A stretch of 64,000 nt of DNA from Acidobacteriota bacterium. Its GTDB lineage: Bacteria; Acidobacteriota; Terriglobia; Acidiferrales; UBA7541. The notes under the pieces are model-generated. The model was not told the DNA's origin. It searched no databases and saw nothing but the letters and a program-made list of their open reading frames with translations. Each line of letters begins with the position of its first letter. Positions within the stretch are counted from its first letter, which is position 1. The stretch covers positions 110,285 through 174,284 of the forward strand of contig PMTV01000014.1 in NCBI GenBank assembly GCA_003167215.1, read 5' to 3'. Positions 24,527-44,036 of this stretch are shown piece by piece. The translations under genes and the position numbers were made by a program.

Positions 24527-25204
24527 TTAGCGCGGCTGTAAGCGCATTGCCGGGACATTCGTGGAATAGCGTAATTTAGGTTCCGTGAACTTTTGCACTT
24601 CTTCCGGAGTGAATCCCGGGGCAACCTCGCGGAGAACCAAGCCTTCCGGGGTCACGTCAATCACCGCAAGGTCGGTAATAATCGTATCCACACAGTCAAT
24701 GGCCGTGAGCGGGTAGCTGCAGGTCTTTACAATTTTAGGCGAGCCGTCTTTTGCAGTGTGTTCCATGGTCACGATGAGTTTTTGCGCGCCGACTGAAATG
24801 TCCATCGCGCCACCGATTCCGCCGGCGCCCTTCGCGCCCGGGATGCGCCAATTCGCGAGGTCTCCATGTTCCGAAACCTGAAGGCCGCCGAGTATACAGA
24901 TATCGAGATGGCCTCCGCGGGTCATCACGTGAGCATCATCCTGTGAAAAATACGACCCGCCGGGAAGTAGCGTGACGGGAACCTTCATCGCGTCGACTAG
25001 ATCGAAATCTTCTTCGCCGGGCTTCGCGCGCGGTCCCATTCCAAGGATTCCATTTTCGCTGTGAAAATAGACAGTCACTTGCGAAGGAACGTAAGCCGCG
25101 ATCAGATTCGGAATGCCCCAGCCTAAATTCACGTACGCGCCATCCGGCAACTCCAGGGCAGCTCGTTCGGCAATCTGTTCTCGTGTGAGCCGTGCTTTAG
25201 GCAT
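24527..25204 (-). CDS. 3-oxoacid (3-oxoadipate-like) CoA-transferase subunit B
   Basis: Start at MPKARLTREQ; VYFHSENGILGMGPRAKPGEEDFDLVDA (active-site SENG); GGHLDICILGGLQVSEHGDLANW; overlaps subunit A. Confidence 0.9.
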   Translation of the reverse strand: MPKARLTREQIAERAALELPDGAYVNLGWGIPNLIAAYVPSQVTVYFHSENGILGMGPRAKPGEEDFDLVDAMKVPVTLLPGGSYFSQDDAHVMTRGGHLDICILGGLQVSEHGDLANWRIPGAKGAGGIGGAMDISVGAQKLIVTMEHTAKDGSPKIVKTCSYPLTAIDCVDTIITDLAVIDVTPEGLVLREVAPGFTPEEVQKFTEPKLRYSTNVPAMRLQPR

Positions 25205-25877
25205 ATCGCTTCCCCTCGGCCTGAACGATACGATCGACAAATATGGAAGGCGTAATGATGGCTTCGGGATCGAGCTTTCCCGTACCGACGATCTCCTCCA
25301 CCTCGGCAATCGTAAATTTTGCCGCCGTGGCCATAATCGGATTGAAATTCCGCGCCGCCTTGTGATAAATCAAGTTTCCCATGTGGTCCGCGCGGTACGC
25401 CCGAATGAATGCATAATCCGCGCCCAGCGCCTGCTCCAGGATGTAGCGCTTCCCTCGAATCACGCGTTCCTCTTTACCGCTCGCAATCTCGGTTCCCACA
25501 CCAACGGGCGAGAAAAATGCGGGAATGCCCGCGCCAAACGCGCGCATGCGCTCGCACAGAATTCCTTGCGGCACGAGTTCCAGCTCGATTTCTCCGGCGT
25601 CAAATTGTTCCTGAAAATATTTTGCGCCAGGCCCGGGAAACGCCGCCACGACTCTGCGAATCTGCCTGTTCTTAAACAGGAGCCCCAGTTCCCCTTCGCC
25701 GGTGCCGCAATTATTGCTGATCACGCTCAGATTTCGCGCGCCCTGCCGCGCAAGAGCTTGGATCAGGTTGTTGGGAAAGCCGGCTCCGCCGAAACCACCG
25801 AACATAATCGTTGCGCCATCGGGGATGTCCGCTACTGCAGCATCTATTGTGGGATAAACTTTCTCTTTTGAAGTCAT
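25197..25877 (-). CDS. 3-oxoacid (3-oxoadipate-like) CoA-transferase subunit A
   Basis: TIMFGGFGGAGFPNNLIQAL; ELVPQGILCERMRAFGAGIPAFFSPVGVGT; AARNFNPIMATAAKFTIAEVEEIV. Confidence 0.9.
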   Translation of the reverse strand: MTSKEKVYPTIDAAVADIPDGATIMFGGFGGAGFPNNLIQALARQGARNLSVISNNCGTGEGELGLLFKNRQIRRVVAAFPGPGAKYFQEQFDAGEIELELVPQGILCERMRAFGAGIPAFFSPVGVGTEIASGKEERVIRGKRYILEQALGADYAFIRAYRADHMGNLIYHKAARNFNPIMATAAKFTIAEVEEIVGTGKLDPEAIITPSIFVDRIVQAEGKRYA

Positions 25878-26321: not shown

Positions 26322-27347
26322 TCAGAAAATAGCTTTCTCACGGACTCTTGCGAGGAATTTGAGATCCGTCGTCACGGGGACATCGCCGGCCGTTGTCACG
26401 ATCGCGGGACGCGACTTTTTGATGAAAGCGTGGAAGAGTTCCAATAAGGTTTCCGCGGCTGATGCCTCCGGCTGAAATGCTTCGGGACTTAAAGCAATAC
26501 CCAGATTGGCGAATCCCGACGAAGGAACCATCTCCCATGCGCTGAATGCTGACGCGGCCAGTGCCGGACATATGACGCAATCCCAATTCTGCTGAAAGAT
26601 AACCTGCTTGTTTTGGGCGAAGGAATGGCTGTCCATGATCTGCAGAACCGGAAGTGCCTCATAAAACCGCACGATGTTAATTGCCGGCGCAAGCAATGAT
26701 GCCCAGGCCTCGCGATATTCGGCCGATAGCACTGGCAGAATATCTTCCTGGATGAAGATCACACTCGCGCCCGCTTCCACAAATTTGGAAGCAATCTGCG
26801 TGATAGTTGCGGCCGCCAGCTCCAACACTGCATCGGTAAAATCCTCGCGTCGTGCTGCATTCCCTTGCCGCAGTCCAGTAATTCGCGCTGCCAGCGTGAA
26901 CGGACCCGCTACTCCTGCCATCAGGAGAGGTTCATCGCGCAGCAGTGACTTGAGCCGGCGAATTGCTTCGACCGCAACGGTGACGCGAGTGCTTTTCGCT
27001 GCGTCTTCCGGCGACCGAAGGCCTTCCGGAACTTCGCCTTTCTCTGCGTGGTGCGGCCATTGAATCGCGGGCGGCTGGTCGCCGGTCTTCCATTGCAGAA
27101 CGGCGCCGAGCGCTTCCGCTTCGAGATAAGGATCGAAGTAGCAAGCGACCCCGTCCGAGCGCAGGTGGCTGCGGATTTGTCGCAGCGAATTGGAGATTTT
27201 TGTGGGGTTCCCGAGAAATTCGCGCAATGGAAGATTTTCCACTTTGGCGCCGAGCGAAAACACGATGGGCAAGAATAGCGGCCGCGTCTGCGGAATTCCT
27301 TGCAGCAACCCTTTAAGCATCTGACGCGGAGTGGAATTCTCCGTCAT
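26322..27347 (-). CDS. Uroporphyrinogen decarboxylase (UROD)/methyltransferase family protein
   Basis: 341 aa, UROD-fold pattern (LLMAGVAGPFTLAARITG; KFVEAGASVIFIQEDILPVLSAEYREAWASLLAPAINIVRFYEALPVLQIMDSH). Confidence 0.65.
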   Translation of the reverse strand: MTENSTPRQMLKGLLQGIPQTRPLFLPIVFSLGAKVENLPLREFLGNPTKISNSLRQIRSHLRSDGVACYFDPYLEAEALGAVLQWKTGDQPPAIQWPHHAEKGEVPEGLRSPEDAAKSTRVTVAVEAIRRLKSLLRDEPLLMAGVAGPFTLAARITGLRQGNAARREDFTDAVLELAAATITQIASKFVEAGASVIFIQEDILPVLSAEYREAWASLLAPAINIVRFYEALPVLQIMDSHSFAQNKQVIFQQNWDCVICPALAASAFSAWEMVPSSGFANLGIALSPEAFQPEASAAETLLELFHAFIKKSRPAIVTTAGDVPVTTDLKFLARVREKAIF

Positions 27348-27350
27348 CGC

Positions 27351-29411
27351 TTAAGGCCGGAAGCAAGGCCCGGTGGACTTCGCGTCCGGCCAAGTGCCGT
27401 AATACTGCAAGATTTCTTTGGGGGGACTCAATTTGCTCCATTGCTTCTGGAATTCATCGAATGGCTTACCGCGCGCCAGGCGGGCGCGCCGTTCTTCGTC
27501 CCTAAGTTGCTTGGTTTTTTCCGCATCCAGTTTGCGGCGCACAGGATCGTATGCAATGCGATAGACATTTTGCGCCGTCCCATCCGAGATGATCTTCTTC
27601 TTCACGTCTTCCAGAATCTCCAGGGGATCGCGCTCGAGCGGATCTCCGTAGCCCGGGCCGCCGCCGCTGAAACCGAATAGCAGATCACCTTCCTCATACA
27701 CCTTGGGAGTGCGCGCAATTAACTCCATAGTCCAATTGCCTTCGATGGTGTGCCCCTCCAGGATCGTGCGGGAGTCCATGGTGAGGTTCGGATTGGCTTC
27801 CGCCATCTGCTTCAGCAAATCCGCCTTGCGTATGCTGATCCCAGGAATGGGCGAAGAAGCGTATCCGCCGAAAAGCGGCTGGCCTAGCGGGACCTTACTG
27901 CCGTTTCCCATGCACAGCGAAACCAGGTTGGGAACTTTGTGAATCATCCATTGCTGCACACCGCCGGAACCGCCGCGATGAAGCCCCGGGCCGCTCGAAT
28001 CTTTCCAATGCTGCGATAGCGTCACCGTAACGGGCAATTCGCTTTCCACCTGCTCGGAATCCGGCGCTCGGCCAAACGCGCACCACGCAAAGCCGTAAGC
28101 GTCCATGCCGTCTTCAGCGGAGCGCCCTCCTTGCCCTTGCGTGTTCAACGAAAACGAAAGTACATCCGAAACAGCGAGGTTCCACTGCGAGTGCCCCGCG
28201 CAAATTTGCGCTGTGTGCTGGCTACCGGGCGCCGCAGCCACTTGTCTCCAGAGTCCGGCGCTCGAAAATACCATCTTCGCGAAACTATTGTGCGTCGCGT
28301 TGCGCGCCTGCATTCCGATATACACGCAGCAACTCGTGGCCGCCATTTTGTCCGGGTTGAGGATGATTCCTTCCGGAAAAAGAAAATCGATGGGCGCGAA
28401 CGTGGAGCTGGATATCGGCAGGTCGTGGAAAATATATTCGTACATGAAATTGGCGATGTGGCCGACGACCGCTTGCGGATGCACGTTGTAGGAAGAGGGG
28501 TTTTCCGGCGAAGTGCCTTCAAAATCGAAGACAAGTCCGCCGTCTTTCTTCGTGAGCGTCAAATAGCAGGCGCGGACCAGGGCCGGCGTCCAGCCAATCG
28601 CATCATTAAACACCACGGCTCGGAATTTGCCGTCGGGAAGAGCTTTGATTTTCTTTCTGGCTCCCGCCTCGGCTGTTTCACTCATCTTGCGCATCAAGCC
28701 GACGACATAGTCCGGCCCGCGTTTTTCGGCAAGCTCCAGCACGCGGACTCGTACGCGGTCGGCAGTGGTACAACGCGCGCGCAAATCGGAAATGAACATG
28801 GCCGGCGCCCGCAAACCGTACACCGTGTAAAATTCCAGAAAATCATTGCGAATCTCGAAGTTCTCCCCGATTTTAATGGGAGGAAGATTCAACCCTTCCT
28901 CGAATCGCGATTTTGCGCTGACCGGCATGCCGCCGGGTTCAATGGCACCAGTTTCCGTGGTGTGCAGCGCAGCAGTCCCCCATCCCAGAAGCTGCCCTTT
29001 ATAAAAAATGGGCATGAGCGCCACTTGATCTGGATTGTGAATGCCGCCGTAGAGAGCGTCGTTGGTGTACCAGATATCCCCGTCGCGGATTCCCGGATTT
29101 TGTTCGTAATATTTCAAAATAAATTTAATGACAATAGGCTGAATGATGGCGTGCAGGTATGTGCCGCAGGATGCGTTTATCAGATCCCCGCCGGCAGTAA
29201 ACAGCGCCACCATGGAATCGCCCGAGACGCCGAAATAGCTTCGCGACGCTCGCACGAACACTTCCATGGCCTCATCGAGAATGTCGTTAGTCACCTGCAC
29301 GCCAATTTCGTAATCGCCCTGAGCGATTTTCGCCGCGCACTGTTTTTCATAAGGCGTGGCTGGGGCTGGTTTGAGCCATGCCAGTTTTTCGGCAAGAGTT
29401 GGAATAGGCAT
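27351..29411 (-). CDS. Hydantoinase B/oxoprolinase family protein (HyuB-like carboxylase subunit)
   Basis: VFVRASRSYFGVSGDSMVALFTAGGDLI; GDIWYTNDALYGGIHNPDQVALMPIFYKGQLLGWGTAALHTTETGAIEPGGMP. Confidence 0.88.
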   Translation of the reverse strand: MPIPTLAEKLAWLKPAPATPYEKQCAAKIAQGDYEIGVQVTNDILDEAMEVFVRASRSYFGVSGDSMVALFTAGGDLINASCGTYLHAIIQPIVIKFILKYYEQNPGIRDGDIWYTNDALYGGIHNPDQVALMPIFYKGQLLGWGTAALHTTETGAIEPGGMPVSAKSRFEEGLNLPPIKIGENFEIRNDFLEFYTVYGLRAPAMFISDLRARCTTADRVRVRVLELAEKRGPDYVVGLMRKMSETAEAGARKKIKALPDGKFRAVVFNDAIGWTPALVRACYLTLTKKDGGLVFDFEGTSPENPSSYNVHPQAVVGHIANFMYEYIFHDLPISSSTFAPIDFLFPEGIILNPDKMAATSCCVYIGMQARNATHNSFAKMVFSSAGLWRQVAAAPGSQHTAQICAGHSQWNLAVSDVLSFSLNTQGQGGRSAEDGMDAYGFAWCAFGRAPDSEQVESELPVTVTLSQHWKDSSGPGLHRGGSGGVQQWMIHKVPNLVSLCMGNGSKVPLGQPLFGGYASSPIPGISIRKADLLKQMAEANPNLTMDSRTILEGHTIEGNWTMELIARTPKVYEEGDLLFGFSGGGPGYGDPLERDPLEILEDVKKKIISDGTAQNVYRIAYDPVRRKLDAEKTKQLRDEERRARLARGKPFDEFQKQWSKLSPPKEILQYYGTWPDAKSTGPCFRP

Positions 29412-29435
29412 CTGTCTCCTCGATTTCTCGGCGAC

Positions 29436-31556
29436 CTAGCTTTCCAGTATGCCGAGGCCTCGCTCATCAATCGAAAAACGCATCGCCGGCGGAACAACGA
29501 GCGTGGTGTATTCGCTCTCGACGATTGCAGGTCCTTCCACCACGTTTCCGGGACGCAGCAATTCGTAAGTAAAAATTGGCGTTGTACGAAAATCTTTCTC
29601 CGTCGTCCAGTACACTGGTCGCTCGGCTTTCCGCGCAGCCGCCGGGCTGTGCCCTTCCAGCGTCATTTTCGGCATTTCAACCTTCTTCGTCGGGACGATC
29701 GCCTTCAGGATGAAACTCTCGATGAAGATTCCACCTTCCGGGTTCACCACAAACGGGCTGAAGGCTTTGCTGAATTCCTTGTTAAACGCATCGCAGATGG
29801 CGCGAACGTCTTCTACCGAGTGAATCGCCAAGAGCGGGGAGAGCGCTCTTTTTACGTGAAACTGTCCGCCATAGAGCATGTCCAGCTCGAGAACGAACGA
29901 CGCATCGTTCAGATTCAAGCCGTCGCCGGTCAAATCCCGCCGTGCCTGCTCGATAAGGTTCTCCACCGTCACGTTGAAGACTGAGAATTCGTTGGATAGC
30001 TTTTGGGTACCGGGCTCCATGAGCGTGAGCTTTTTAGACACTTCGTAAACGTGCATGATATCCATGGTCGAAGACCCGAACGCGCAGAACACGGGAGAAA
30101 ACGCGAAGGTCACGGCTTTCGGAATATCGGCCTTATATCCTTCCGCATGCGTGGGGCCCGCACCGCCGCCGACGAAAAGAATGAATTCCTCAGGGCTGTA
30201 GCCGCGGAGATGAACTTCCTTCATGATCGCGGAAGCCATGTTGCCGTTGACGATTTTTCGTATGATCACAGCGCCTTCTTCCACGCTGATTCCGAGCGGC
30301 TTGGCGATCTTGTCGCGCACCGCCTGAATCGCGCGATTCTTGTCCAGTCGCATCTTCCCGCCGAAATAGTATTCCGGGTTGAGGTAGCCGAGGACCACAT
30401 CCGCGTCTGTCACCGTAGGCTCGCTTCCGCCAAGATTGAAACAAGCTGGGCCGGGAATCGAGCCGGCGCTCCGAGGACCCACCTGTAGGCGGTTCTCAAG
30501 CAGCTTGTTGACCGACGCGATCGAACCTCCCCCGGCGCCGATGGAAAGCGTCTTGATCATGGTGATGCCGACCATCCAGCGGTCAATGATGGGCCTGAAG
30601 TCGTAACTGCGCACGCTGTCTTTCACCACCAGGCCCACGTCGAAGCTGGTACCGCCCATGTCCGTCATCACCACATTTTGATATCCCAGAGTTTTTGCCA
30701 CATGATGCGCGCCCATTAGCCCGGATACTGGTCCGCTGTTGAACGTGCGGCTGGCAGCGGTGCGAAAGACTTCGGCGATTCCACCGGAACTCTGAATCAT
30801 GAGGAGCGGTTTGGAGTAGCCTTTCTCGCGCAGCTTGTCCCACATGGCGGAAAGTTCGATTTGCATGGACCGCTGCAGGTAGGCATCGAGAATTGCGGCC
30901 ATGGTTCGCTCGTACTCACCGAGCTTTCCAACCACTTGTCCGGCGAGGACCACCGGCAGATAGCCAATGTGAAATTCTTTGTACTCGTCGCGAATAATTT
31001 CCTTCACCCGTCGCTCGTTCACCGGATTCAGAAAACCCCAAAGCAACGAGACCACAAATCCGCGCGCACCACGGCTGGTGAGATAGCGAACTTTTTCACG
31101 CAGGTCGTTTTCATCAAGCGGCCGGATCACTCTGCCGCGCGAGTCCACGCGCTCTTTTACGCCGACGATCATGTCCCGCGGTATCAGCGGTTCCGGCTTG
31201 TTCTGAACGGCAAGATTCCTGCGCTCGGAAACACGCGTGCCGTCGATCCACTGTGCGCCCCGGCCGATCAACACTACGTCTTCATGGCCTTCGGTCGTGA
31301 TCAACCCCAAACGCGGGCCTTTCTTTTCAATCAGGCGGTTTAGCGCGATGGTTGTCGAGTAGCGGATCATTTCGATGCCCGGCAGCAGATCTTCAATCTT
31401 CATGCCCAGCGCTGCCGCACCGTCTTCAATCACGCGCGTAAAGCAGACGGAAAGATCGTACGGGGTCGTCGGAGACTTTTTGATCAGAGCCTTCCCGTTA
31501 TAGTTGAGGACCAGATCGGTGAAGGTCCCGCCGACATCGATATCGATAGAATTCAT
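29436..31556 (-). CDS. Hydantoinase A/oxoprolinase family protein (HyuA-like carboxylase subunit, copy 1)
   Basis: IDVGGTFTDLVLNYNGKALIKKSPTTP; MTDMGGTSFDVGLV; GAGGGSIA; FVGGGAGPTHAEGYKADI. Confidence 0.9.
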   Translation of the reverse strand: MNSIDIDVGGTFTDLVLNYNGKALIKKSPTTPYDLSVCFTRVIEDGAAALGMKIEDLLPGIEMIRYSTTIALNRLIEKKGPRLGLITTEGHEDVVLIGRGAQWIDGTRVSERRNLAVQNKPEPLIPRDMIVGVKERVDSRGRVIRPLDENDLREKVRYLTSRGARGFVVSLLWGFLNPVNERRVKEIIRDEYKEFHIGYLPVVLAGQVVGKLGEYERTMAAILDAYLQRSMQIELSAMWDKLREKGYSKPLLMIQSSGGIAEVFRTAASRTFNSGPVSGLMGAHHVAKTLGYQNVVMTDMGGTSFDVGLVVKDSVRSYDFRPIIDRWMVGITMIKTLSIGAGGGSIASVNKLLENRLQVGPRSAGSIPGPACFNLGGSEPTVTDADVVLGYLNPEYYFGGKMRLDKNRAIQAVRDKIAKPLGISVEEGAVIIRKIVNGNMASAIMKEVHLRGYSPEEFILFVGGGAGPTHAEGYKADIPKAVTFAFSPVFCAFGSSTMDIMHVYEVSKKLTLMEPGTQKLSNEFSVFNVTVENLIEQARRDLTGDGLNLNDASFVLELDMLYGGQFHVKRALSPLLAIHSVEDVRAICDAFNKEFSKAFSPFVVNPEGGIFIESFILKAIVPTKKVEMPKMTLEGHSPAAARKAERPVYWTTEKDFRTTPIFTYELLRPGNVVEGPAIVESEYTTLVVPPAMRFSIDERGLGILES

Positions 31557-31939
31557 TCGGCGGCCTCCAGGCGCTGTTCGCGAATCACGAACTCTCCCTT
31601 TTGCAGTCTTTCTTTCAACCGGTCCACATCAATTTCTATATCGTGCGTGATGGGATGCCCGGGAGGCAGGTATTCCGTCTCCACTTGCGTACCGCAGCCC
31701 GGACAATAAAATTCGACGATGCGGACCCAAAGCGGGTCGGGAGAAAAATTGAATGCTCCGGAAACCAGCGGCGGATGAATTTCCCGTGGATCGCGATCGT
31801 GAACCAAACAGCCCTTTTTGTAATTCTCTCGGGCCGGGCCGATTACGCGATTGCAACGGTTACACATCCACTGTTCGCTATCGAGATCCAAATCGAGGTA
31901 CTCAGTGATGCGTAGACGATTTTTTTGCTGTGTGGCCAT
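31553..31939 (-). CDS. Acetone carboxylase gamma-like small subunit
   Basis: 128 aa with two CxxC pairs (CNRC, CPGC): WMCNRCNRVIGPARENYKKGCLVHDRDP...VRIVEFYCPGCGTQVETEYLPPGHPITHDIEID; 4-nt overlap with the next gene. Confidence 0.75.
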   Translation of the reverse strand: MATQQKNRLRITEYLDLDLDSEQWMCNRCNRVIGPARENYKKGCLVHDRDPREIHPPLVSGAFNFSPDPLWVRIVEFYCPGCGTQVETEYLPPGHPITHDIEIDVDRLKERLQKGEFVIREQRLEAAE

Positions 31940-31966
31940 TGAGCTTTCCTCTTTCGGCGCGGCCGA

Positions 31967-34102
31967 CTAAACCTTTGGGGAAACGCGGCTGAGCGAGCCG
32001 TTTCCGAAACGGTCCATTATCATTTCCCATCCCTCGGGAATAAAATAGGTGCTGTTCACGTCTTCGAGCACTGCACACCCACTGACTCGGTTGCCGGGCC
32101 GCAATGCTTCCCAATTGTAAATTTGCGCTTCGCCTTTGCTGCTGCCCCACAAAACCTTGCGCGTCCCCTTGCGCGCGTGCGACGAATCGGGGCCTTGCAA
32201 CGGGCGTTCGACCAGCCGCGGCTTGGGCATCCCTTTCTTCACCGATACGCGGATCAGCTCGAGCGAAATCGGGCCGTCTGGCGCGCCTCCAGGATTCCCG
32301 AGGGCCTTGGCGAGCGCCGCTTGCAGATCCTTCTCGCTGCGCAGAGACGATTCCGAGCAAGGCACCGAGATTGAGCTGTGGCCGTTTCGAGATACATCCA
32401 TTTCGTAGGCGTAACTAATCCCATCAGGACGAATGCCTTCACCGAGAAGATCCTTCACGCCTTCCGCTTTCATTTCCTCGATCATCTGCCGAATTCGGAT
32501 GAGGCCGACATCTGAAATCGCGACCCCTGCTAGCGAGCCTTCGTACAGATGAGAAATGTCGGAGACAGAAGAGCCGAAAGCGCTGAATACGGGTCCCAGA
32601 GAAAATAATTGCACGCGATTGAGCCCCGCTTTTTCCGCTACGCCGCACGCGAACAAGCTGCCGTTACCTCCGTAAGCGAAGAGAATCGATTTCGACCAAT
32701 CCCGGTTCAGCCCTTTTTCGGTGCTGACGATCATGTTCGCGACAGATTCGAAGGCTCGGTCGAGGACGATCCGGCAGGCTTCCTCAATCGTCAAGTTCAG
32801 CGGCCGCGCCACTGATTCAGCAATCACCTTGCGAGCCAATTCCAGATCGATCGTTTTGGCTCCGCCAAGAAAATAATCCGGATTGATTAGTCCTGCTGCG
32901 ACGAACGCGTCGGTGAGCGTCGGCTGATCCCCTCCGAGCCCGTAACACGCAGGCCCTGGAAATGAACCCATGCTCTCCGGACCCAACTGAACACTCGCCT
33001 TTTCGGCATTCGGGAGAGGTTTCACCACGCTGCCGCCGCCCAATGCGATCGAATGCAAATCAGGAAGCGAGATCGCTACGGGGATGCCGAAAAAATCGGA
33101 TGGCCTGCGGTAGATCGGTTCGCCGTTGAGCAGCACGCTGATCTTCGCGGTGGTCCCGCCAATATCCATCGAGATCACGTCATTGAAACCGTAAGCCTTT
33201 GCCAGGTAGGCGCTGGCATGAATTCCCAGAATCGGTCCGGATTCGATCGTATCAATCGCCTTGGTCTTGGCGATTCCCGCCACGCCACCATTGATATGAC
33301 TCACCAAAAAAGTGCCGGTGTACCCGGCACTTTGGCGAAGGTCATCCTCAGCCTTGAACAGCGTCGCCGCCAGCGCTCCATGCGTGTACGTATTGATCAG
33401 CGCGGAATACGTGCGCGTTTGGTCCTCCGCGGATTTGGAAATATCGCTCCCGGCTAAGACCGGCACAGAACCCAGGAAATGATCCGGATACTGTTGGTCG
33501 ATGATTCGTTTGACGGCGATTTCCCGCCGGGGATCACGATGCGAACCTTCCAGGCTGACGCAGATGCGTCGCACGCCGCTTTCCAGAAGTTTGCGCGCGG
33601 CATTCATGATCTCGGGCTCGCCCGCAGAATCATTCACGCCGATTACATCCTGCTCGGATATCAGGCGATTTAAAACGCTGCTGCGGGGCTCTTGTCCATA
33701 AAGGTCTTTCTGGTGACCTTGGGAGACCAGCAAGCCGATGCGGGGGCCTCGCGATTCCGCCAGCACGTTGGAAGTGATCGTAGTGGACCAGCGAATCAAC
33801 TCCACGTTTTCGAGGAATTCATTCGTGCCGGGGAAATCCAGTTTCGCGGCTCCTCGGGACAGGCAGTCAAACAGGCAAACGGTCAAGTCGTGCGGGGTGG
33901 TATCCACTTTCACGCAGAAGATTTCTTCACCGCTAGTGAAAATCCCGTCCGTTAGCGTTCCGCCGACGTCAATGTCCACTGTCCACACAGCAACCTCACC
34001 TGGCCTGGGGATTATTTCTTCTGGATTCGCAAAACTTGCGCACATGGTTTCGCTGCGTAAAGCTGATCGAGAGTTGCGGCACGTCGATTGAGAACCGCAC
34101 AC
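31967..34102 (-). CDS. Hydantoinase A/oxoprolinase family protein (HyuA-like carboxylase subunit, copy 2)
   Basis: VDIDVGGTLTDGIFTSGEEIFCVKVDTTPHDLTVC; SMDIGGTTAKISVL; ALGGGSVVKPL; FAYGGNGSLFACGVAEKAG. Start codon uncertain; the real start is probably 33989-34045, near or past the ligase stop. Confidence 0.85.
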   Translation of the reverse strand: MCGSQSTCRNSRSALRSETMCASFANPEEIIPRPGEVAVWTVDIDVGGTLTDGIFTSGEEIFCVKVDTTPHDLTVCLFDCLSRGAAKLDFPGTNEFLENVELIRWSTTITSNVLAESRGPRIGLLVSQGHQKDLYGQEPRSSVLNRLISEQDVIGVNDSAGEPEIMNAARKLLESGVRRICVSLEGSHRDPRREIAVKRIIDQQYPDHFLGSVPVLAGSDISKSAEDQTRTYSALINTYTHGALAATLFKAEDDLRQSAGYTGTFLVSHINGGVAGIAKTKAIDTIESGPILGIHASAYLAKAYGFNDVISMDIGGTTAKISVLLNGEPIYRRPSDFFGIPVAISLPDLHSIALGGGSVVKPLPNAEKASVQLGPESMGSFPGPACYGLGGDQPTLTDAFVAAGLINPDYFLGGAKTIDLELARKVIAESVARPLNLTIEEACRIVLDRAFESVANMIVSTEKGLNRDWSKSILFAYGGNGSLFACGVAEKAGLNRVQLFSLGPVFSAFGSSVSDISHLYEGSLAGVAISDVGLIRIRQMIEEMKAEGVKDLLGEGIRPDGISYAYEMDVSRNGHSSISVPCSESSLRSEKDLQAALAKALGNPGGAPDGPISLELIRVSVKKGMPKPRLVERPLQGPDSSHARKGTRKVLWGSSKGEAQIYNWEALRPGNRVSGCAVLEDVNSTYFIPEGWEMIMDRFGNGSLSRVSPKV

Positions 34103-35919
34103 TGGTTTAGCGAGCCTTTGTCGGTGATTTCGCCGCCATCCAGTGAAGGCGGCTCCTGCACCACCATCGCTCTCGTGACGCGAGTGGAACTCCCTGTGGC
34201 ATTCACAGCAAAGCTCTCGAGCAACTCTTGAAAACGCCGGTGCACGTTTGGATGTCCGAAAATCTCTGCTGCGGATGAGGAGCGCTCAAGCCCCAAGCAA
34301 AGAGCGCGACATTCATCGATATCTCCAAAGATCATCAGGCCCACTTCATCTCGATCGTGGCCGGTTACAACCACGTCGCGGACAAATGGGGCGAAGTGGC
34401 TCAGAATCCTGCCGCGAAGAGCACCCACGTTGACCCATGTCCCGCTCGAAAGCTTGAAATCCTCTGAAAGTCGCCCATCAAACTCGAAACCTTTGTTCAC
34501 ATCGGACGGATCCACGAAACGAAGCGCATCTCCGAAGCTGTAGAACCCTTCTTGATCAAATGTCTTTCGCGTGAGTTCCGGTTGGCGCCAGTAACCTGGT
34601 GTTACATTTGGTCCGCGAACTCTCACTTCGAGTTTCTTGCCACATGGCACAAGTTTGGCCTCAACACCGGGAATAGGAATACCGACGACGCCTGCCCGGT
34701 CGGTTTCCCAGGTGGCTTGGATGGCCATAGGGGAAGTCTCCGTGGCGCCGAGGCCGGAGACCATCACGATTCGCTCGCCACAAGTCTCAAGCGCCAGGGC
34801 TCGGTAAGCATCCCAGACCGGCTGCGATAAGCCTGCGCCCGCATAAAACAAGAGACCCAGGCGGCGGAAGAAATTTTCACGAAGCTTTGTTTCTCCGCGC
34901 AGGGCCGGCAGCAGATCCTCATAGCCTTTAGGAACGTTGAAGTAAACCGTCGGAGAGATCTCGCGCAGATTGCGAATGGTTTCTTCGATGAATCCGGGAC
35001 CCGGCTTGCCGTCGTCAATATAAAAACTCCCACCATTGTAAAGGGCGATGCCCACGTTGTGGTTTCCGCCGAAGGTGTGATTCCAAGGAAGCCAGTCCAC
35101 CAGCACAGGAGGCTCGTCCTGCAGAAAACAAAATACCTGCGCGATCATTTGCTGATTGCAGCAGATCATCCGGTGCGTGTTGATGACAGCTTTGGGCATT
35201 CCGGTCGAACCGGAAGTGAAAAGAAACTTAGCCACGCTATCAGGCTTTATCTGTTGGCGCGCGGCAGCTAAGCCGGCTGTCGGCGCAGTAGCCAGGAGGT
35301 TGGCAAACAGGGTTGCCTTTCTCCCCTTTGGGGCAGCGCTCGTAACCACGAGCTCGGTATCCCTGCTGACAACTGCCTCGATAGCGCTGCCATACCGCTC
35401 GCCGTTCGAGGCAAATACCAAACCCGGTGTGAGGATGCCCAGCGTATGCCGCAGCCGGCCGAAATCTTTGGAAACCAGCGAATAGGCGGGCGAAAGGTGC
35501 GCTGTAGGAACTCCTACGTGCTGTCCAGCCAACATGAGCACCAAATGCTCGAGATCGTTCTCGGAGAGAATTGCTACGGGTCGCTCGGCCGACAGGCCTC
35601 GGTCCAGCAAAGCTTGTCCGACACTTTCCACTGCCGCGAGCACTTGTGCATAGGTAAGCCTTCGCCATTCCCTGCTCACATCCCTCTGAGCGGCGCAAAT
35701 TCTTTCCGGAAACGCCTTCGCCCAATGGACCAGGCGATCCGTAAGAACTTTCGGATACGGACCTAGCGCTTCATCTGGGCGCACCAGTAATGTTCCGTCG
35801 GCCAGCTTTTCAACGGACGCTCCGGAAGTCCGGAGCCGCACTTGGCGGACGCCCGCGCCCCCAATCCGGTGCTGCACGCGCGGGCTGTTCTTGGCGTGAC
35901 TCGAGTTCATTGTTTCCAT
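34012..35919 (-). CDS. AMP-binding ligase, feruloyl-CoA synthase-like
   Basis: KFLFTSGSTGMPKAVINTHRMICCNQQMIAQVFCFL; LVDWLPWNHTFGGNHNVGIALYNGGSFYIDDGKP; FEFDGRLSEDFKLSSGTWVNVGALR. Confidence 0.82.
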   Translation of the reverse strand: METMNSSHAKNSPRVQHRIGGAGVRQVRLRTSGASVEKLADGTLLVRPDEALGPYPKVLTDRLVHWAKAFPERICAAQRDVSREWRRLTYAQVLAAVESVGQALLDRGLSAERPVAILSENDLEHLVLMLAGQHVGVPTAHLSPAYSLVSKDFGRLRHTLGILTPGLVFASNGERYGSAIEAVVSRDTELVVTSAAPKGRKATLFANLLATAPTAGLAAARQQIKPDSVAKFLFTSGSTGMPKAVINTHRMICCNQQMIAQVFCFLQDEPPVLVDWLPWNHTFGGNHNVGIALYNGGSFYIDDGKPGPGFIEETIRNLREISPTVYFNVPKGYEDLLPALRGETKLRENFFRRLGLLFYAGAGLSQPVWDAYRALALETCGERIVMVSGLGATETSPMAIQATWETDRAGVVGIPIPGVEAKLVPCGKKLEVRVRGPNVTPGYWRQPELTRKTFDQEGFYSFGDALRFVDPSDVNKGFEFDGRLSEDFKLSSGTWVNVGALRGRILSHFAPFVRDVVVTGHDRDEVGLMIFGDIDECRALCLGLERSSSAAEIFGHPNVHRRFQELLESFAVNATGSSTRVTRAMVVQEPPSLDGGEITDKGSLNQCAVLNRRAATLDQLYAAKPCAQVLRIQKK

Positions 35920-36068: not shown

Positions 36069-39000
36069 CTAGAAAGCGAACTTAGCCGCGAACTGGAATT
36101 GCCGCGGGTTCAGCATGGTCCTGGGGGCGCCGAATAGACCATTCGGTACCGGCGGGCTTGGCACCGGCGCCAGGTTCGGACAGGTGAATGTGGCTGGATC
36201 CGTGGGATTGAAGTCGGCAGCTTGGGCCTGAGTCTCTCTGGTGGCCTTGTCTCGGTAGTTCCTTGGGACCGCTGTGCCTCCGCATATCACTGCGGCGCCG
36301 TACACTGAAGTCACTTCGTCCACGTTCGGCCGATTGAGTAAGTCGAATGCGTCAACCATCAAGTCGAGTCTCAGACGTTCCCTAATCTGGAAGTAACGAG
36401 AGATGCGCAGATCCCATGAGTAGAGAGGATCGCCGTAGTAGGTGTTCCTACCCAGGTTTCCAACGCGGTCAGTGACGGGATTCGTATCGCCATTGGCATC
36501 GAACCCGACGAACATGGTAAAGGGGCGCCCAGTCTGCAACGTGACGATGCTGCTCATCGAGAAGTTGCGCAGGATGCTATGGATGGGCGTAGTTCCCGTA
36601 AAATTCGTTACGAACCGCTGACGCACGTCTTGGTTCGAATTCGCCCGTTCCAGCCCGCGATTGTAGAGGTCCTGCGGCGTGCTGACGAAGGTTGTAAACG
36701 TGCCATCGTCGAGCGTGTGTGAAAAAGTGTAGTTCGCGTTGAGGCTGAAATACTGTCCGGCCCTCTCGGTCACCTGGAGCGTCAGACCGTTGTAAACGGA
36801 ATTTCCTGTATTGTCCGTGGAATACAGAAGACCGGCATTATCGTATGCCGCACCACCGCCTGCTACGCCTGCGGCACCGAAATAGGCCTTACCAGCGGGC
36901 CAGCCGGCAGGAGGCGCCGGAGTTGGCGCGCAATTTGGGATACCAGGATTAATGGTAGGGACTGTCGTGCCGGCCGGGGCACCAAATGGCGGGCAGACAT
37001 TCAGGTTCGACGCACGGACTAGATGGTGCGCCGCAACCCAGAGATATCCAGCGCTGACGGTAAGTCCATGTCCGATTTCCCGGTCGATCTCAAGATTGGC
37101 CTGTTCCGAATAAGGGATTTTGCTGTCGTGCTGCACCATGCCCGCGCCCGCAGTGCACGATGGCGGGCAGGGCCCGGTAATGAATTGCGCCGGCACCTGG
37201 CCCGTGGTGACCAAAGTTGCCGCCGCGTTGGCGGGAAGTAGGAATGTGGGTGGACCGGCCAATGGCCCCGGCGTCAACTGGTTCAGAACCCACGTCGCTG
37301 TGTTTGCACCTTGCCGGATTCCCGGCAGCGTCTCCCCAGGAATTATTACCGGCCTTTGCGGCTGAGTGATGAACAAGAAAGACAGGTTGTAGCGATCATC
37401 GAATAGACCCGCGCCAGCTCGCACCACTGTCTTGTTGTTCGGAGACCAAGCCAAACCGAGGCGAGGCTGGACACCGTTATAGTGAGGATTGATCTGCTTC
37501 GACAATCCCGACTCGAAATCGTATCGGATACCATAATTAACCGTCAAACTGGGCCTGACCCGCCACTGATCCTGAGCGTAGAATCCATAATAAGCGTGAT
37601 CGAGAGTTTCGGAAAAGTTCCCCGTTTCGGACGGGAGATACGCATTCTTCCAATTTGTCGGAATTGGCGGTGGAGTTGGAAGCTGACCGCTCGGAGGATT
37701 GGGCGCGCTTCCGACCGGAGCTCCCCAAAAGACGATCGGAACGCCGTTCAATGGATCGAGCGGATTGGGCCCCGGAACGGCAGGGAAACCTGTCGAAGTC
37801 GGACACTGTCCGTCGGCAGGATTCGACGGAATATCCGCGGTCGTATCCACGAAGTTGGCAAAATCCACCAGGCAATTGAGACCGGGCAACACGATCCTCA
37901 TCGGGGTGAATCCAGGCCAGATCACAAAATTGTTGACGTAGTTGTAATCGACACCGAACTTCGCAACGTGGTTTCCTTTCACCCACGATATGTTGTCAGC
38001 GAGTTGGAAGCGGCTTTCGTAAATGGCGTCGAAAACTCCGAAGTTGTGACCGAACAAAAGCGTGTTAGGGATATCAAGATTGGGCTGGCCCGTGACTCCG
38101 GGAAAATTATAGTGGCGTCGCGCGTATTGAGCCAGAACGCTATTCACCAGGTTGGGCTTAATTATCGTGCTCACCGTACCCACCAGAGATTGATCCCGAA
38201 GGAATAAATTATGGCCGCTGCTGGGGGCGCCAATGCCGCCGCCATCCAGCGTGCTGCCTACTAACTGATTCAAATCGCGTCCATCTTCGACGTTGTAACG
38301 CAGACTCAACCGGTTGTTGGAATTGATCTGATAATCAGCTTTGATGATGCCGTAGTCGTTGTCCTTGGTCTTTAGGATATTGGGATTCTCCGGCGCAATT
38401 CCCAACGCCGCTTTTGACTCATTGATCAAATCCAGGTTTTGATAAAACACGCCCGGAAAGGTTGGCGATTCCCCGCGCCTCTGGCCTTCGTAATTCGTAA
38501 AGAAGAAGAACTTGTCCTTCTCGATCGGCCCTCCGAGCGACGCGCCGAATTGATTTTGACGCAGCGTATCGTCGTCCGGCGAGGGCTGGAGAAGCGACCG
38601 CGCGTCGGTCGCGTTGTTCTGCAAATAATCATATACCGTGCCATGAAATTCATTTCCGCCCGATTTCGTAACAATGTTGACGATGCCGCCCAGTGCGCGG
38701 CCGTACTCCGCGCCAAATCCGTTGTTCACCACACGAAATTCCTGTACCGATTCCTGCGGTGGCGTGGACCGTTGGGAACCTGTCACGGTGTTGACGTTGT
38801 CTGCGCCGTCCACTGTGATTTCATTGCTGAGGTCTCGCATACCACCAAAAGAAACTCGGGTTGACTCGAATTCCGTAATGGTGGACTGCAGGCTGGTGCG
38901 GCCCGTGGCCACACCGGCGGTCAGCAGCGCAAAATCGGTGAATAGCCGGCCACTGATTGGCAAATCGTTGATCTGCTTCGTGTCAATCACTTGGCTGATT

Positions 39001-39404
39001 TCTGTCTTGGTCGGCTCAATAGTCGGCGCTTCTGTGCTGACGATAACTTCTTCTCCGTGCGCCTCAACTTTTAAAGTGATATTAACTGTAGCTGTCTGGC
39101 CGACGCTCAGTATGGTCCCCGTCTGCGTGTACTTCGAGAAGCCTTTAAACTCGGCCTTGAGTTCATAGCGCCCGGGAGGGAGATTGGGTATGGCGTAATA
39201 GCCGGATTGGTCGGAGGTAGCGCTGTACATGGTATTCCTATCCATTTCGCGCAGGCTAATGGTGGCGCCGCTCACAGTACCGCCGCTTGCGTCAAGCACG
39301 GTTCCGTTTAACGACGCTACGCTGGTTTGCGACCACGTTGGATCTGCATAACTAAACAGAATCGCAATCGCTAAAATAGCAAACAGCCCAGTACGTATCC
39401 TCAT
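36069..39404 (-). CDS. TonB-dependent receptor, Oar-like, with N-terminal carboxypeptidase-regulatory-like domain
   Basis: Signal peptide; VASLNGTVLDASGGTVSGATISLREMDRNTMYSATSDQSGYYAIPNLPPGRYELKAEFKGF; plug-like NDLPISGR and barrel end PRTMLNPRQFQFAAKFAF. Confidence 0.88.
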   Translation of the reverse strand: MRIRTGLFAILAIAILFSYADPTWSQTSVASLNGTVLDASGGTVSGATISLREMDRNTMYSATSDQSGYYAIPNLPPGRYELKAEFKGFSKYTQTGTILSVGQTATVNITLKVEAHGEEVIVSTEAPTIEPTKTEISQVIDTKQINDLPISGRLFTDFALLTAGVATGRTSLQSTITEFESTRVSFGGMRDLSNEITVDGADNVNTVTGSQRSTPPQESVQEFRVVNNGFGAEYGRALGGIVNIVTKSGGNEFHGTVYDYLQNNATDARSLLQPSPDDDTLRQNQFGASLGGPIEKDKFFFFTNYEGQRRGESPTFPGVFYQNLDLINESKAALGIAPENPNILKTKDNDYGIIKADYQINSNNRLSLRYNVEDGRDLNQLVGSTLDGGGIGAPSSGHNLFLRDQSLVGTVSTIIKPNLVNSVLAQYARRHYNFPGVTGQPNLDIPNTLLFGHNFGVFDAIYESRFQLADNISWVKGNHVAKFGVDYNYVNNFVIWPGFTPMRIVLPGLNCLVDFANFVDTTADIPSNPADGQCPTSTGFPAVPGPNPLDPLNGVPIVFWGAPVGSAPNPPSGQLPTPPPIPTNWKNAYLPSETGNFSETLDHAYYGFYAQDQWRVRPSLTVNYGIRYDFESGLSKQINPHYNGVQPRLGLAWSPNNKTVVRAGAGLFDDRYNLSFLFITQPQRPVIIPGETLPGIRQGANTATWVLNQLTPGPLAGPPTFLLPANAAATLVTTGQVPAQFITGPCPPSCTAGAGMVQHDSKIPYSEQANLEIDREIGHGLTVSAGYLWVAAHHLVRASNLNVCPPFGAPAGTTVPTINPGIPNCAPTPAPPAGWPAGKAYFGAAGVAGGGAAYDNAGLLYSTDNTGNSVYNGLTLQVTERAGQYFSLNANYTFSHTLDDGTFTTFVSTPQDLYNRGLERANSNQDVRQRFVTNFTGTTPIHSILRNFSMSSIVTLQTGRPFTMFVGFDANGDTNPVTDRVGNLGRNTYYGDPLYSWDLRISRYFQIRERLRLDLMVDAFDLLNRPNVDEVTSVYGAAVICGGTAVPRNYRDKATRETQAQAADFNPTDPATFTCPNLAPVPSPPVPNGLFGAPRTMLNPRQFQFAAKFAF

Positions 39405-39660: not shown

Positions 39661-41229
39661 TCAATGCACACTCCTGTCTCGGCTCACCCAAAAGGGCCTG
39701 CGGAGCGCTTTCTTGTCGGTCTTCCCAGCCGCAGTTTTTGGGATCGCATCAGTAAATGCCACGGACTTGGGCGCCTTCACGCCCCCGAGTTTCTCTTTGC
39801 AGTGCGCGATGACGGCATACTCACTCAACGATTCTCCTGCATGCAGCACCACAATTGCCTTCACCGCTTCGCCCCATTTCTCGTCCGGCACGCCGATGAC
39901 CGCGCACTCGTGAACTTGCGGAAGCGCCATCACGCCGGCTTCTACTTCCGCGCAGTACACATTGAAGCCTCCGGTAATGATCATGTCTTTCTTTCGGTCG
40001 ACGATGTAGAAGTAGCCGTCTTCATCCCGGTAGCCGATGTCGCCGGTGTGATGCCATCCATGGGTGCGAATTTCAGCGGTGGCGTCGGGAAGTTTGTAAT
40101 AGCCACGCGTCACCAAAGAGCCGCGCGCGACAATTTCGCCGGGTGTGTTAGCAGGCAGAAGGCGCCCCTCTTCATCCATTATCGCAAGGGTTACAGCAGA
40201 CGTCGGCTTGCCGCAACTTCGCAGCCGCTCGATATGTTCTCCGCCGGCAGCCGCGGCAACAGTTTTCTGATCCAGCCAGGTCAGCAGCATCGGCGCTTCC
40301 GTCTGGCCGTAGCTTTGGCACATGCATGGTCCAAACACTTCGACGGCTTTCTTGAACTTGTCCGGAGAAACCGGCGAAGCCACGATTAAGAAAACGCGCA
40401 AGCTCGAATAGTCAAAATCACTCAATTGCGGATGGTTGAGCAGCGCATACAGCGCAGTGGGCGGCAAGAACATGTGCGTGACGCGGTATAGTTCGATGTT
40501 CCTCAAAACGTCAAGCGCGTCGAATCCCGGCATGACCACATTGGTAGCGCCGAGCGAGGTCATCACGAAGGCCACCACGCCTGCCGCGTGTGAAAGCGGC
40601 GCGCTCGTCAGGCAGACCCGGTCAGTCGTATCGCCCGCCCAGTATTGGCCGGCCATTTCCGTCATGGTTCCCCACGCGAGATCGGTAACCATCACTCCCT
40701 TGGCCGCTCCCGTAGTTCCGCCGGTGGGGACCAGGCCCATCAGACGTTCTGGATTTCCGTATGGATCTCCCCAGTCGATCTCCGCTGCGTTCGAGCCAAC
40801 TTGCATAAATTTGTCTAGCGACGGATTCGGACCATCCTCCGCGTCGATGCAGATCCAATGTCGCAGCGTCGGAACGCGCACTTTGAGTTCTTCCACTTGA
40901 TCGCGGTAGCTGCTGTGATAAAAAAGCCAGGAAACTTCTGCGTAAACCATGTATTCAGCATTGGCTTCTGGCGCATTCCGGGAATTGATCGGAACCCACA
41001 CCGCGCCTGCGCGCAGCACCCCCAACATACAAAACAAAACACGCGCGTCATTTGGCGAATAAATCGCGGCGCGTTCTTCCCCGTTCAATCCATTCGCACT
41101 CATCGCGCGCGCGATTCGGCGCGTGATCTCCCGCATCTCCTGATATGTATAACGGCTCTCACCGTCGATGATCGCAGTCCGCCCCGGGCACGCGTCTGCG
41201 CCTTTGTCGAAATAATCTATCGCGCGCAT
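39661..41229 (-). CDS. AMP-binding acyl-CoA synthetase
   Basis: MGLVPTGGTTGAAKGVMVTD; QSYGQTEAPMLLT; GWHHTGDIGYRDEDGYFYIVDRKKDMIITGGFNVYCAEVE. Confidence 0.9.
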   Translation of the reverse strand: MRAIDYFDKGADACPGRTAIIDGESRYTYQEMREITRRIARAMSANGLNGEERAAIYSPNDARVLFCMLGVLRAGAVWVPINSRNAPEANAEYMVYAEVSWLFYHSSYRDQVEELKVRVPTLRHWICIDAEDGPNPSLDKFMQVGSNAAEIDWGDPYGNPERLMGLVPTGGTTGAAKGVMVTDLAWGTMTEMAGQYWAGDTTDRVCLTSAPLSHAAGVVAFVMTSLGATNVVMPGFDALDVLRNIELYRVTHMFLPPTALYALLNHPQLSDFDYSSLRVFLIVASPVSPDKFKKAVEVFGPCMCQSYGQTEAPMLLTWLDQKTVAAAAGGEHIERLRSCGKPTSAVTLAIMDEEGRLLPANTPGEIVARGSLVTRGYYKLPDATAEIRTHGWHHTGDIGYRDEDGYFYIVDRKKDMIITGGFNVYCAEVEAGVMALPQVHECAVIGVPDEKWGEAVKAIVVLHAGESLSEYAVIAHCKEKLGGVKAPKSVAFTDAIPKTAAGKTDKKALRRPFWVSRDRSVH

Positions 41230-41322: not shown

Positions 41323-42435
41323 TCACGAAAGGAGTTTTGCCTTCACGAATCCGTGGCTTTCGAGCGCCCCGAGAAGTTCACGATGTCCAAATGCAGACGT
41401 GGGCGAAGCGAAACCAACCTTCCGCGGCGCAGCATGGATCAAATGGTGCGCGGCAAACGCTTGCAAGAGCCCGGTCTGCCGATAAGCGCAGGTCCCAAAC
41501 ATCACGCACTTGGCGAAGGATGTCGTTCCGCGCCCGACGACCACATCGATCGTTCGGTGCTCTCGAGTGTTTTCCCGCGACGGGGTTCCGGCTTGCACAG
41601 AGTTAGCCATCTCTGAGAGCTTTCGCTCTTGCTCCTCTTTGGCCAAGGGCCGAATCTCCTTCTCGTAATGTATTTCTGTCGCCAGGACATTCTCCATGAG
41701 CTGTCGATCCAGTATTCCACCCATCGACCGCACGTTCGCTACCTGCGGATGATCCTTGTACCAAACCGGGTGCGGGAAACCTCCCCACGCCAGCGCCAGT
41801 TGCGTTTCGACTGAACTCGGCAAAATCGCCTCATGCCCCCTCGCGCGCACCCAAGGCTTATAGCGATGCTGTTCCAGGTAACAAGCCTCCGTTTGTATCA
41901 CGGCAAAAATCGTTTGCGTGGAACCGAACGTCGGCGCACCCTTGAACATTGACAAAGTCTCGAGCGTGTCGATGCCGCTAGTCTCGAGGCATATTTGAGC
42001 GGCAATATCGCTCGTGGCTGACATATATGCCGTCGCTGGAGCGGCCAGCAGCCCCGCGCGCGCGAACTTCTCGCCCCACTTTTCGGAAACTTCTCTTAGC
42101 CACGCTTGTTCCCCGCTGATGTCAATGTAATGGCATCCCGCACCGAGGCAGGCCTCGATCACCCGAGGCCCGTTGTAAAGAAATGGACCGACGGTGTTGC
42201 ACACCACTTTGGCGCCTGCGAACAATTTCTCCAACTCCGCGGCCGAATTGCCGGCTTCTGCGATCTCGTAATCCGCGGTTTCAATACCGGGCACGTGACT
42301 CAACACTTGCTCGATTTTTTTTCGATTGCGGCCGACCGCCAGAAACGGAACGTTGTATTCTCGAAGGAATTCCGCGACCAGGCGTCCTGAAAAGCCGCTT
42401 GCTCCATACAGAATTACGGGTTTCTTGTCGGCCAT
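41323..42435 (-). CDS. Saccharopine dehydrogenase / trans-acting enoyl reductase family protein
   Basis: Start MADKKPVILYGASGFSGRLVAEFLREYNVPFLAVGRNRKKIEQV; VVCNTVGPFLYNGPRVIEACLGAGCHYIDISGE. Confidence 0.82.
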   Translation of the reverse strand: MADKKPVILYGASGFSGRLVAEFLREYNVPFLAVGRNRKKIEQVLSHVPGIETADYEIAEAGNSAAELEKLFAGAKVVCNTVGPFLYNGPRVIEACLGAGCHYIDISGEQAWLREVSEKWGEKFARAGLLAAPATAYMSATSDIAAQICLETSGIDTLETLSMFKGAPTFGSTQTIFAVIQTEACYLEQHRYKPWVRARGHEAILPSSVETQLALAWGGFPHPVWYKDHPQVANVRSMGGILDRQLMENVLATEIHYEKEIRPLAKEEQERKLSEMANSVQAGTPSRENTREHRTIDVVVGRGTTSFAKCVMFGTCAYRQTGLLQAFAAHHLIHAAPRKVGFASPTSAFGHRELLGALESHGFVKAKLLS

Positions 42436-42582
42436 CGCATTCCTCGCTTCGGTGAGCACATTCGCAGAAGGCTCCCGGCAGATTTCACCGGCCCTTCCGA
42501 CCTCGTAAACTCGGCATACTATGCTAAAGTCGCTTTTTGGCTAGTAGGAACCTTTCAGAAACCTGGTATCGGGAGTCCCACC

Positions 42583-43917: not shown

Positions 43918-44036
43918 TCGTCTTAACTTCTGCGTTTTCGCCTGTGCATTAAAAGCGGTGCGGAGACCACCCTGCTTTTGTAACATCGCAGGAAGACTCG
44001 GGTTCCGTGACTCGGCGGTTGCAAGGAGGAAGTGGC

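Follow-up and report, generated by a model that had tools for sequence, protein, structure and literature searches.

When its structure was published in 2017, the acetophenone carboxylase (Apc) of Aromatoleum aromaticum EbN1 was the only Apc characterized: an enzyme that uses two ATP-dependent kinase sites, needs no biotin and requires its epsilon subunit, ApcE, for activity, the role of ApcE being then unsettled (PMC5214803). The structure of ApcE (9fou) was released by the Protein Data Bank (PDB) in December 2025. Apc can be told from acetone carboxylases (Acx) and hydantoinases by the order of its genes, its position in the tree, its subunit lengths and its motifs (Weidenweber et al. 2017, PMC5214803). 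Here we analyze a six-gene operon on the minus strand (positions 26322-35919) of a 64,000-nucleotide stretch, referred to as the window, of contig PMTV01000014.1 from an Acidobacteriota bacterium (assembly GCA_003167215.1). Judged from its sequence, the operon likely specifies all five subunits of an ATP-dependent ketone carboxylase that needs no biotin, belongs to the acetophenone carboxylase branch and works like Apc. The carboxylase is probably an aryl-ketone carboxylase paired with a product-activating CoA ligase, its likeliest substrates being 4-hydroxyaryl methyl ketones that would be funnelled to protocatechuate.

The locus resembles ApcABCDE and the ligase Bal of A. aromaticum EbN1 (5L9W; 9fou) in its five subunits and their A-B-C-D-E order, in subunit lengths, in ATP motifs, zinc cysteines and bicarbonate-pocket residues, and in the operon-linked ligase. 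It differs in sequence identity, which amounts to 61% for ApcC and 40% for ApcA (against 5L9W) and to 20-22% for ApcE (in structural alignment with 9fou), in its placement in a deep, separate clade, in a glutamine-to-lysine change at position 344 of the proposed ketone pocket, and in being surrounded by aerobic protocatechuate genes instead of a benzoyl-CoA route.

The first gene of the operon (34012..35919) encodes an AMP-dependent ligase of the feruloyl-CoA synthase type, a putative aroylacetate-CoA ligase. It is followed by apcA-like (31967..34045; alpha' subunit and proposed bicarbonate kinase, 692 aa from ATG 34045), apcB-like (31553..31939; gamma, 128 aa), apcC-like (29436..31556; alpha and proposed ketone kinase, 706 aa), apcD-like (27351..29411; beta, 686 aa) and apcE-like (26322..27347; epsilon, with a uroporphyrinogen decarboxylase (URO-D) fold, 341 aa) genes, which is the canonical apcABCDE order with a ligase in front. 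The corresponding Pfam and NCBIfam classes are AMP-ligase, Hydantoinase_A, Acetone_carb_G, Hydantoinase_A, Hydantoinase_B and URO-D. An earlier note, made from the letters of the window, had proposed these six genes with tight junctions, and all six open reading frames (ORFs) are indeed intact. The overlap that it saw between the first HyuA gene and its small neighbor is the 4 nt (31553-31556) shared by apcC and apcB, its UROD start just past the HyuB stop is that of apcE, 3 nt after the apcD stop, and the contact between the second HyuA and the ligase holds as well: the longest apcA ORF opens at GTG 34102, and the likely start, ATG 34045, still makes apcA overlap the end of the ligase gene, whose stop is at 34012. 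The host genome spans 3.78 Mb in 68 contigs and is 95.7% complete; in it, apcA and apcC are the only Hydantoinase_A genes and apcD the only Hydantoinase_B gene. A chance origin of the arrangement is excluded, as over 15 further acidobacterial contigs share the A-B-C-D-E order, with identities of 56-86% for ApcA, ApcC and ApcD and lower for ApcE. Contamination of the assembly is improbable: the contig that surrounds the operon is 431 kb long, and seven other genomes of the same genus have the operon as well. A promoter and terminator scan of the region from 24 to 43 kb yielded no more sites than shuffled sequence.

The assignment of the operon to the Apc branch rests on matches to the Apc models, to 5L9W and to 9fou, on the ApcC tree and on conserved residues, subunit lengths and gene order. 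The top NCBIfam match of all five subunits is an AcphenoCarb_ApcA-E model, with bit scores (curated cut-offs) of 646 (1250) for ApcA (NF042960), 197 (250) for ApcB (NF042974), 1088 (1500) for ApcC (NF042975), 897 (1500) for ApcD (NF042976) and 84 (450) for ApcE (NF042977); caprolactamase models score far below these. The best PDB sequence match of ApcA, ApcB, ApcC and ApcD is 5L9W, the A. aromaticum Apc core (ApcC to 5l9w_B, 1000 bits; ApcD to 5l9w_A, 859 bits; ApcB to 5l9w_C, E = 2.7e-50; ApcA to 5l9w_b), in agreement with the suggestion of the earlier note that two HyuA proteins, a HyuB and a small zinc-ribbon-like protein make up the Apc core set. ATP motifs of the ASKHA type are conserved in both alpha (ApcC) and alpha' (ApcA; DVGGTLTD, DIGGT and GSFPGP), the Apc-alpha fingerprint R/KERiDsxG appears as KERVDSRG in ApcC and only there, and all four zinc cysteines of ApcB (C26, C29, C79 and C82) are retained. 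The alpha, beta and gamma subunits measure 706, 686 and 128 aa, compared with 732, 684 and 129 aa in 5L9W and 717-727, 776 and 168 aa in Acx.

Gene order, tree placement, lengths, motifs and the presence of ApcE all place the locus with Apc when it is judged as in Weidenweber et al. (2017). Acetone carboxylase AcxABC (5M45, 5SVB) shares the hydantoinase A/B core and a small zinc-binding gamma subunit, but it is encoded by three genes (acxABC) that lack alpha' and epsilon, differs in chain lengths and is 31% identical in alpha to the five-subunit system of the window. Hydantoinases, oxoprolinases and the caprolactamase CapAB likewise share the alpha/beta fold family and ATP use, but consist of two subunits only (hyuAB, without gamma, alpha' or epsilon), and ApcC is 32% identical to the alpha chain of the lactamase/oxoprolinase structure 6yra.

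The earlier note had placed the last gene of the operon in the UROD family, which is correct, without recognizing it as the fifth subunit that completes apcABCDE. An AlphaFold model built with 35 homologs (mean predicted local distance difference test score 89, predicted template modelling score 0.91) finds its three best PDB fold matches in ApcE chains D, B and A of 9fou (E 1.7e-15); a Methanosarcina methyltransferase and uroporphyrinogen decarboxylases rank lower. A role as a corrinoid-type methyltransferase or heme enzyme was considered for this gene and rejected, as both NCBIfam and the fold search rank ApcE first. MtaA-type enzymes carry a His-x-Cys zinc motif; no such motif is visible in the ApcE alignment. 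In two haloarchaeal Apc-like loci (L010 and L067), a URO-D/ApcE gene lies between two HyuA-type genes (A-E-B-C-D), and a PaaK-like ligase is encoded close by on the other strand.

The ketone pocket proposed for Apc-alpha comprises L81, F281, N282, P285, I333, Q344 and T345, and the bicarbonate pocket proposed for Apc-alpha' comprises E248, D274 and K281 (PMC5214803). Mapped through the alignment, the bicarbonate-pocket positions are occupied by E, D and K in the ApcA of the window and in 53 other sequences, 5L9W included. In the ketone pocket, six of the seven residues are the same (LFNPIKT in the window, LFNPIQT in 5L9W), the seventh being Gln344 replaced by lysine. All 24 members of the acidobacterial clade have lysine at this position, and no sequence sampled outside it does, the others having Q, E, D, H, Y, A or S. 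A basic side chain at this site would be compatible with a ketone substrate that bears a phenolate.

To place the operon among its relatives, we inferred a tree of ApcC (54 sequences), with the Shimodaira-Hasegawa-like approximate likelihood ratio test (SH-aLRT) as the only measure of support. The ApcC of the window belongs to an acidobacterial clade that shares a fully supported group with A. aromaticum ApcC; this clade is deep and sister to all other Apc sampled. The phylogenetic check proposed in the earlier note has thus been carried out on ApcC, and the protein lies within the Apc branch with full SH-aLRT support, not with hydantoinases or oxoprolinases. Tree, lengths and gene set together rule out identity as a hydantoinase/oxoprolinase or as an acetone carboxylase. 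An ApcB alignment scan of the GTDB species genomes, one genome per species, returned 80 loci, of which the best 20 and L053 are the nearest kin of the window (ApcB identity 70-81%); all are labeled Acidobacteria, Acidiferrales or Terriglobia except one, a deltaproteobacterial metagenome-assembled genome (MAG; L029). The operon clade is almost confined to uncultured Acidobacteriota. Within the genus of the window, the operon is present in 8 of 20 genomes, its own included, and several carriers in the family have ApcD proteins 80-99% identical to that of the window. In a phylum-wide sample of 396 genomes searched with the ApcB model, the 395 genomes other than that of the window gave no strong match and five weak ones, and the operon is therefore rare outside its own family. 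Two MAG contigs labeled Klebsiella pneumoniae (L082 and L092) carry Apc operons like those of other Proteobacteria, and their labels look wrong or their bins contaminated. A plasmid-borne Apc-like group from Rhodococcus, Neorhizobium and Cupriavidus (L011, L012, L014 and L015) has a longer HyuB (about 750-776 aa), differing pocket residues (T.HPI..) and a bicarbonate site of S/D/D instead of E/D/K, and probably acts on a different substrate.

The ligase scores 782 bits against the acyl-CoA synthetase subfamily PRK12582, above its cut-off of 777, and is 44-54% identical to plasmid proteins, of which most of those annotated are named feruloyl-CoA synthase; the feruloyl-CoA-synthase-like character given to it earlier is thereby upheld. 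Orthologs at 65-71% identity lie beside apcE in five loci (L018, L022, L023, L025 and L028), and ligases of this type at 40-44% identity lie beside the Apc operons of Pseudonocardia, Actinomycetospora and Sphaerisporangium. The window differs here from several loci close to A. aromaticum in the tree, in which a PaaK-like ligase follows apcE. Among the acidobacterial loci, ten have a PaaK-like ligase and six one of feruloyl-CoA synthase type, never both, a mutual exclusion that fits alternative ligases for one necessary step; two Pseudonocardia Apc loci carry both. The side chain of 4-hydroxycinnamates equals that of aroylacetates in length, and the presence of a ligase type annotated for 4-hydroxycinnamates suggests a 4-hydroxyaryl ketone as the substrate of the predicted carboxylase.

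The functional cluster is larger than six genes, spanning about 24.5-50.6 kb. Upstream of the operon lie, on the plus strand, pcaH (44007..44741) and pcaG (44743..45318), encoding the beta and alpha subunits of protocatechuate 3,4-dioxygenase (TIGR02422, 346 bits, cut-off 296; TIGR02423, 218 bits, cut-off 126), and, on the minus strand, an IclR-type regulator of the PcaR/PcaU/PobR group (42947..43816; TIGR02431, 322.6 bits, cut-off 284.75). Downstream, beyond a tRNA-Leu gene next to apcE, the minus strand encodes pcaI-like (25197..25877; TIGR02429, 291 bits, cut-off 128.5) and pcaJ-like (24527..25309, with an ORF start extended upstream; TIGR02428, 284 bits, cut-off 243.6) subunits A and B of a 3-oxoacid CoA-transferase. 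In four sister loci (L020, L025, G418 and G431), genes for a thiolase, a 4HBT thioesterase and PobA (in L020, 542 bits, cut-off 538.7) directly follow apcE or the ligase.

Elsewhere in the host genome, on contig C10, the neighbors of pobA are genes for a 4HBT thioesterase and a 3-hydroxybutyryl-CoA dehydrogenase as well as pcaC and pcaD; pcaB is found on another contig (C65), and five thiolases score above cut-off, of which the best candidate shares 43-47% identity with the thiolase of the sister loci. In the same genome all BoxB matches fall below cut-off and the class-I benzoyl-CoA reductase family has no match; a benzoyl-CoA route was accordingly set aside, having no supporting genes there. 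Within a family sample of 37 genomes, fragments counted, pobA occurs in 13 of the 14 genomes with the operon and in 12 of the 23 without it (one-sided Fisher P about 0.01), and 6 of the 14 carriers have pobA or pcaH no more than 25 kb from the operon, for which random placement gives P of about 8e-7, uncorrected for kinship.

Because pcaHG, the pcaR-type regulator and pcaIJ lie in the window, thiolase, 4HBT and PobA in sister loci, and pobA-4HBT-pcaCD and pcaB in a host genome with neither BoxB above cut-off nor a class-I benzoyl-CoA reductase, this neighborhood argues for a hydroxylated aryl ketone over acetophenone itself, 4-hydroxyacetophenone and perhaps acetovanillone being the most likely candidates. 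From the genes present, we infer a pathway in which a pyrroloquinoline quinone (PQQ) dehydrogenase might, tentatively, supply aryl methyl ketones from 1-arylethanols. As in A. aromaticum, ApcC would use one ATP to phosphorylate the enol of the ketone and ApcA a second to phosphorylate bicarbonate to carboxyphosphate, with ApcD and ApcB as scaffold; ApcE, needed for activity, would join or close both sites, allowing carboxylation of the phosphoenol to aroylacetate. The ligase would convert aroylacetate to aroylacetyl-CoA, which a thiolase would split into aroyl-CoA and acetyl-CoA, and a 4HBT thioesterase would release the aromatic acid, the latter two enzymes being encoded next to the operon in sister loci and elsewhere in the host genome. 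The resulting 4-hydroxybenzoate, through PobA, or vanillate, through a VanA-like oxygenase, would yield protocatechuate, to be cleaved by PcaHG and channeled into the beta-ketoadipate steps.

Several observations weigh against this reading. None of the five subunits reaches its Apc equivalog cut-off in NCBIfam, and for this reason identity with the A. aromaticum enzyme as the same enzyme is not claimed. The A. aromaticum Apc has been described as having high specificity for acetophenone, 4-hydroxyacetophenone being degraded in the same organism by an altogether different pathway (PMC4729919). The replacement of Gln344 by lysine is one ancestral change in one clade, and so a lead and not an independent proof; the operon of the window has no adjoining thiolase gene, the best candidate in the genome reaching only the 43-47% identity given above; and pobA is common in operon-free relatives as well. 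A plain acetophenone carboxylase of A. aromaticum specificity, forming benzoylacetate and then benzoyl-CoA beside unrelated protocatechuate genes, would agree with the 61% ApcC identity and the six shared pocket residues, and the PQQ alcohol dehydrogenase could yield acetophenone from 1-phenylethanol. We nevertheless regard it as unlikely, given the BoxB and benzoyl-CoA reductase results in the host, the company of PobA, 4HBT thioesterase and PcaHG, and the clade-wide lysine. It is also rather improbable that the enzyme serves another class of ketones (aliphatic, other aromatic or side-chain-extended lignin ketones such as propiovanillone), with the nearby aromatic genes acting on other compounds: the Apc branch is phylogenetically diverse with one characterized member (PMC5214803), and propiophenone and fluoroacetophenones are further substrates of the A. 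aromaticum enzyme (PMC4729919), but the linkage to PobA, PcaHG, 4HBT and ligases of the feruloyl-CoA synthase or PaaK type is repeated, and the pocket is otherwise identical to the one assigned to acetophenone.

An ATP-dependent amidohydrolase (lactamase, hydantoinase or oxoprolinase) shares the core folds, and the core subunits of relatives are automatically annotated as hydantoinase/oxoprolinase family. Such an activity is very hard to reconcile with the presence of ApcA, ApcB and ApcE, none of which hydantoinases possess by the published criteria (PMC5214803), with a tree position inside Apc and with the retained E/D/K of the bicarbonate pocket. A narrower alternative concerns a single step and overlaps with the Apc-type carboxylase and ligase pathway that we favor: the ligase could be a hydroxycinnamate-CoA ligase of a separate pathway, aroylacetate being activated by the pcaIJ-like CoA-transferase. 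The pcaI/pcaJ-like genes do lie directly downstream of the operon, and CoA-transferase genes also follow an Apc-like operon in Neorhizobium petrolearium. Among the acidobacterial loci, however, pcaI adjacency is otherwise seen only in a near-identical relative (G414), and the occurrence of one of two unrelated ligases, never both, is what would be expected if a ligase were needed, so that we give this alternative a minor, though not negligible, chance.

The proposed end result of the predicted pathway, in which a hydroxyaryl methyl ketone would be carboxylated to aroylacetate, matches that of HpeHI-HpeCBA-D-E-F of Rhodococcus rhodochrous GD02, AcvABCDEF of Sphingobium SYK-6 and XccBCA of A. 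aromaticum. In the hydroxyphenylethanone pathway, the aroylacetate formed by carboxylation is taken up by a CoA ligase, and cleavage of a C-C bond then gives the aromatic acid (PMC9618137). GD02 differs in using a phenol-phosphorylating kinase, a biotin-dependent carboxylase (HpeCBA) homologous to XccBCA and a phosphatase (PMC9618137), none of them of Apc type, and variants of the kinase and biotin-dependent carboxylase system in Sphingobium and Novosphingobium have been described as similar (PMC13101465). We tentatively propose, with somewhat less confidence than would favor it outright, that the Apc clade marked by Lys344 may represent, in uncultured Acidobacteriota of soil, a third solution for hydroxyaryl ketones from lignin and plants, in which 4-hydroxyacetophenone or acetovanillone would be used directly, without phenol phosphorylation, and passed through ligase, thiolase, 4HBT and PobA or a VanA-like enzyme to protocatechuate. 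The Apc set beside 4-hydroxybenzoate and protocatechuate genes suggests an undescribed route for plant-derived hydroxyphenyl ketones. In the open-access literature we found no paper linking Apc with acidobacterial aromatic catabolism and, as far as that literature shows, an Apc-type enzyme for hydroxyaryl ketones would be new. If the proposed substrate is right, a biotin-independent route would be added for these compounds and a specific aromatic-catabolic trait assigned to Acidobacteriota known from metagenomes alone. The conserved, deep sister clade with all five subunits offers an independent system for studying double-kinase carboxylation and the role of ApcE. Its genes score under the annotation cut-offs and would be entered as genes for hydantoinase, URO-D and feruloyl-CoA synthase.

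The remaining genes of the cluster recur to varying degrees around related operons. Upstream of the ligase, the minus strand carries genes for a TonB-dependent outer-membrane receptor-like protein (36069..39404; OMP_b-brl_4/CarboxypepD_reg), with homologs beside ten acidobacterial Apc loci, a second AMP-dependent acyl-CoA ligase (39661..41229; PF00501/PF13193), also found near the Apc operon in L027, L033 and L114, and a DUF5938/saccharopine-dehydrogenase-like protein (41323..42459; PF19362). At least five acidobacterial loci (L031, L033, L112, L114 and L115) have the DUF5938 protein in the company of Apc and pca genes, and one relative (G430, loci L113/L114) shows the same neighborhood of TonB receptor, second ligase, DUF5938, IclR regulator, pcaH and pcaG as the window. 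Farther upstream lie a VanA-like Rieske oxygenase and putative aromatic O-demethylase (46509..47654, plus strand; PF19112 VanA_C, 180 bits), which matches no NCBIfam equivalog above cut-off and has an 83% identical homolog in L026, then a cupin, and a PQQ alcohol dehydrogenase-cytochrome c fusion, a putative 1-arylethanol dehydrogenase (48369..50642, minus strand; TIGR03075, 664 bits, cut-off 480), whose cluster (c9) occurs in at least seven loci, the window included.

A RutB-like isochorismatase-family hydrolase (288 bits, cut-off 378; L020, 7266-7946, plus strand) has homologs in about 12 acidobacterial loci; in many sister loci, but not in the window, its gene immediately precedes apcA. The window also encodes a MetE-like protein with the catalytic domain of cobalamin-independent methionine synthase (45347-46447, minus strand). 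MetE-like proteins recur beside acidobacterial Apc loci (besides the window, L030, 16147-18894, and L018, 4078-7768), at times with a 481-aa protein without a Pfam match (c20) or an AprA-type methyltransferase, and possibly reflect methyl-group handling tied to O-demethylation.

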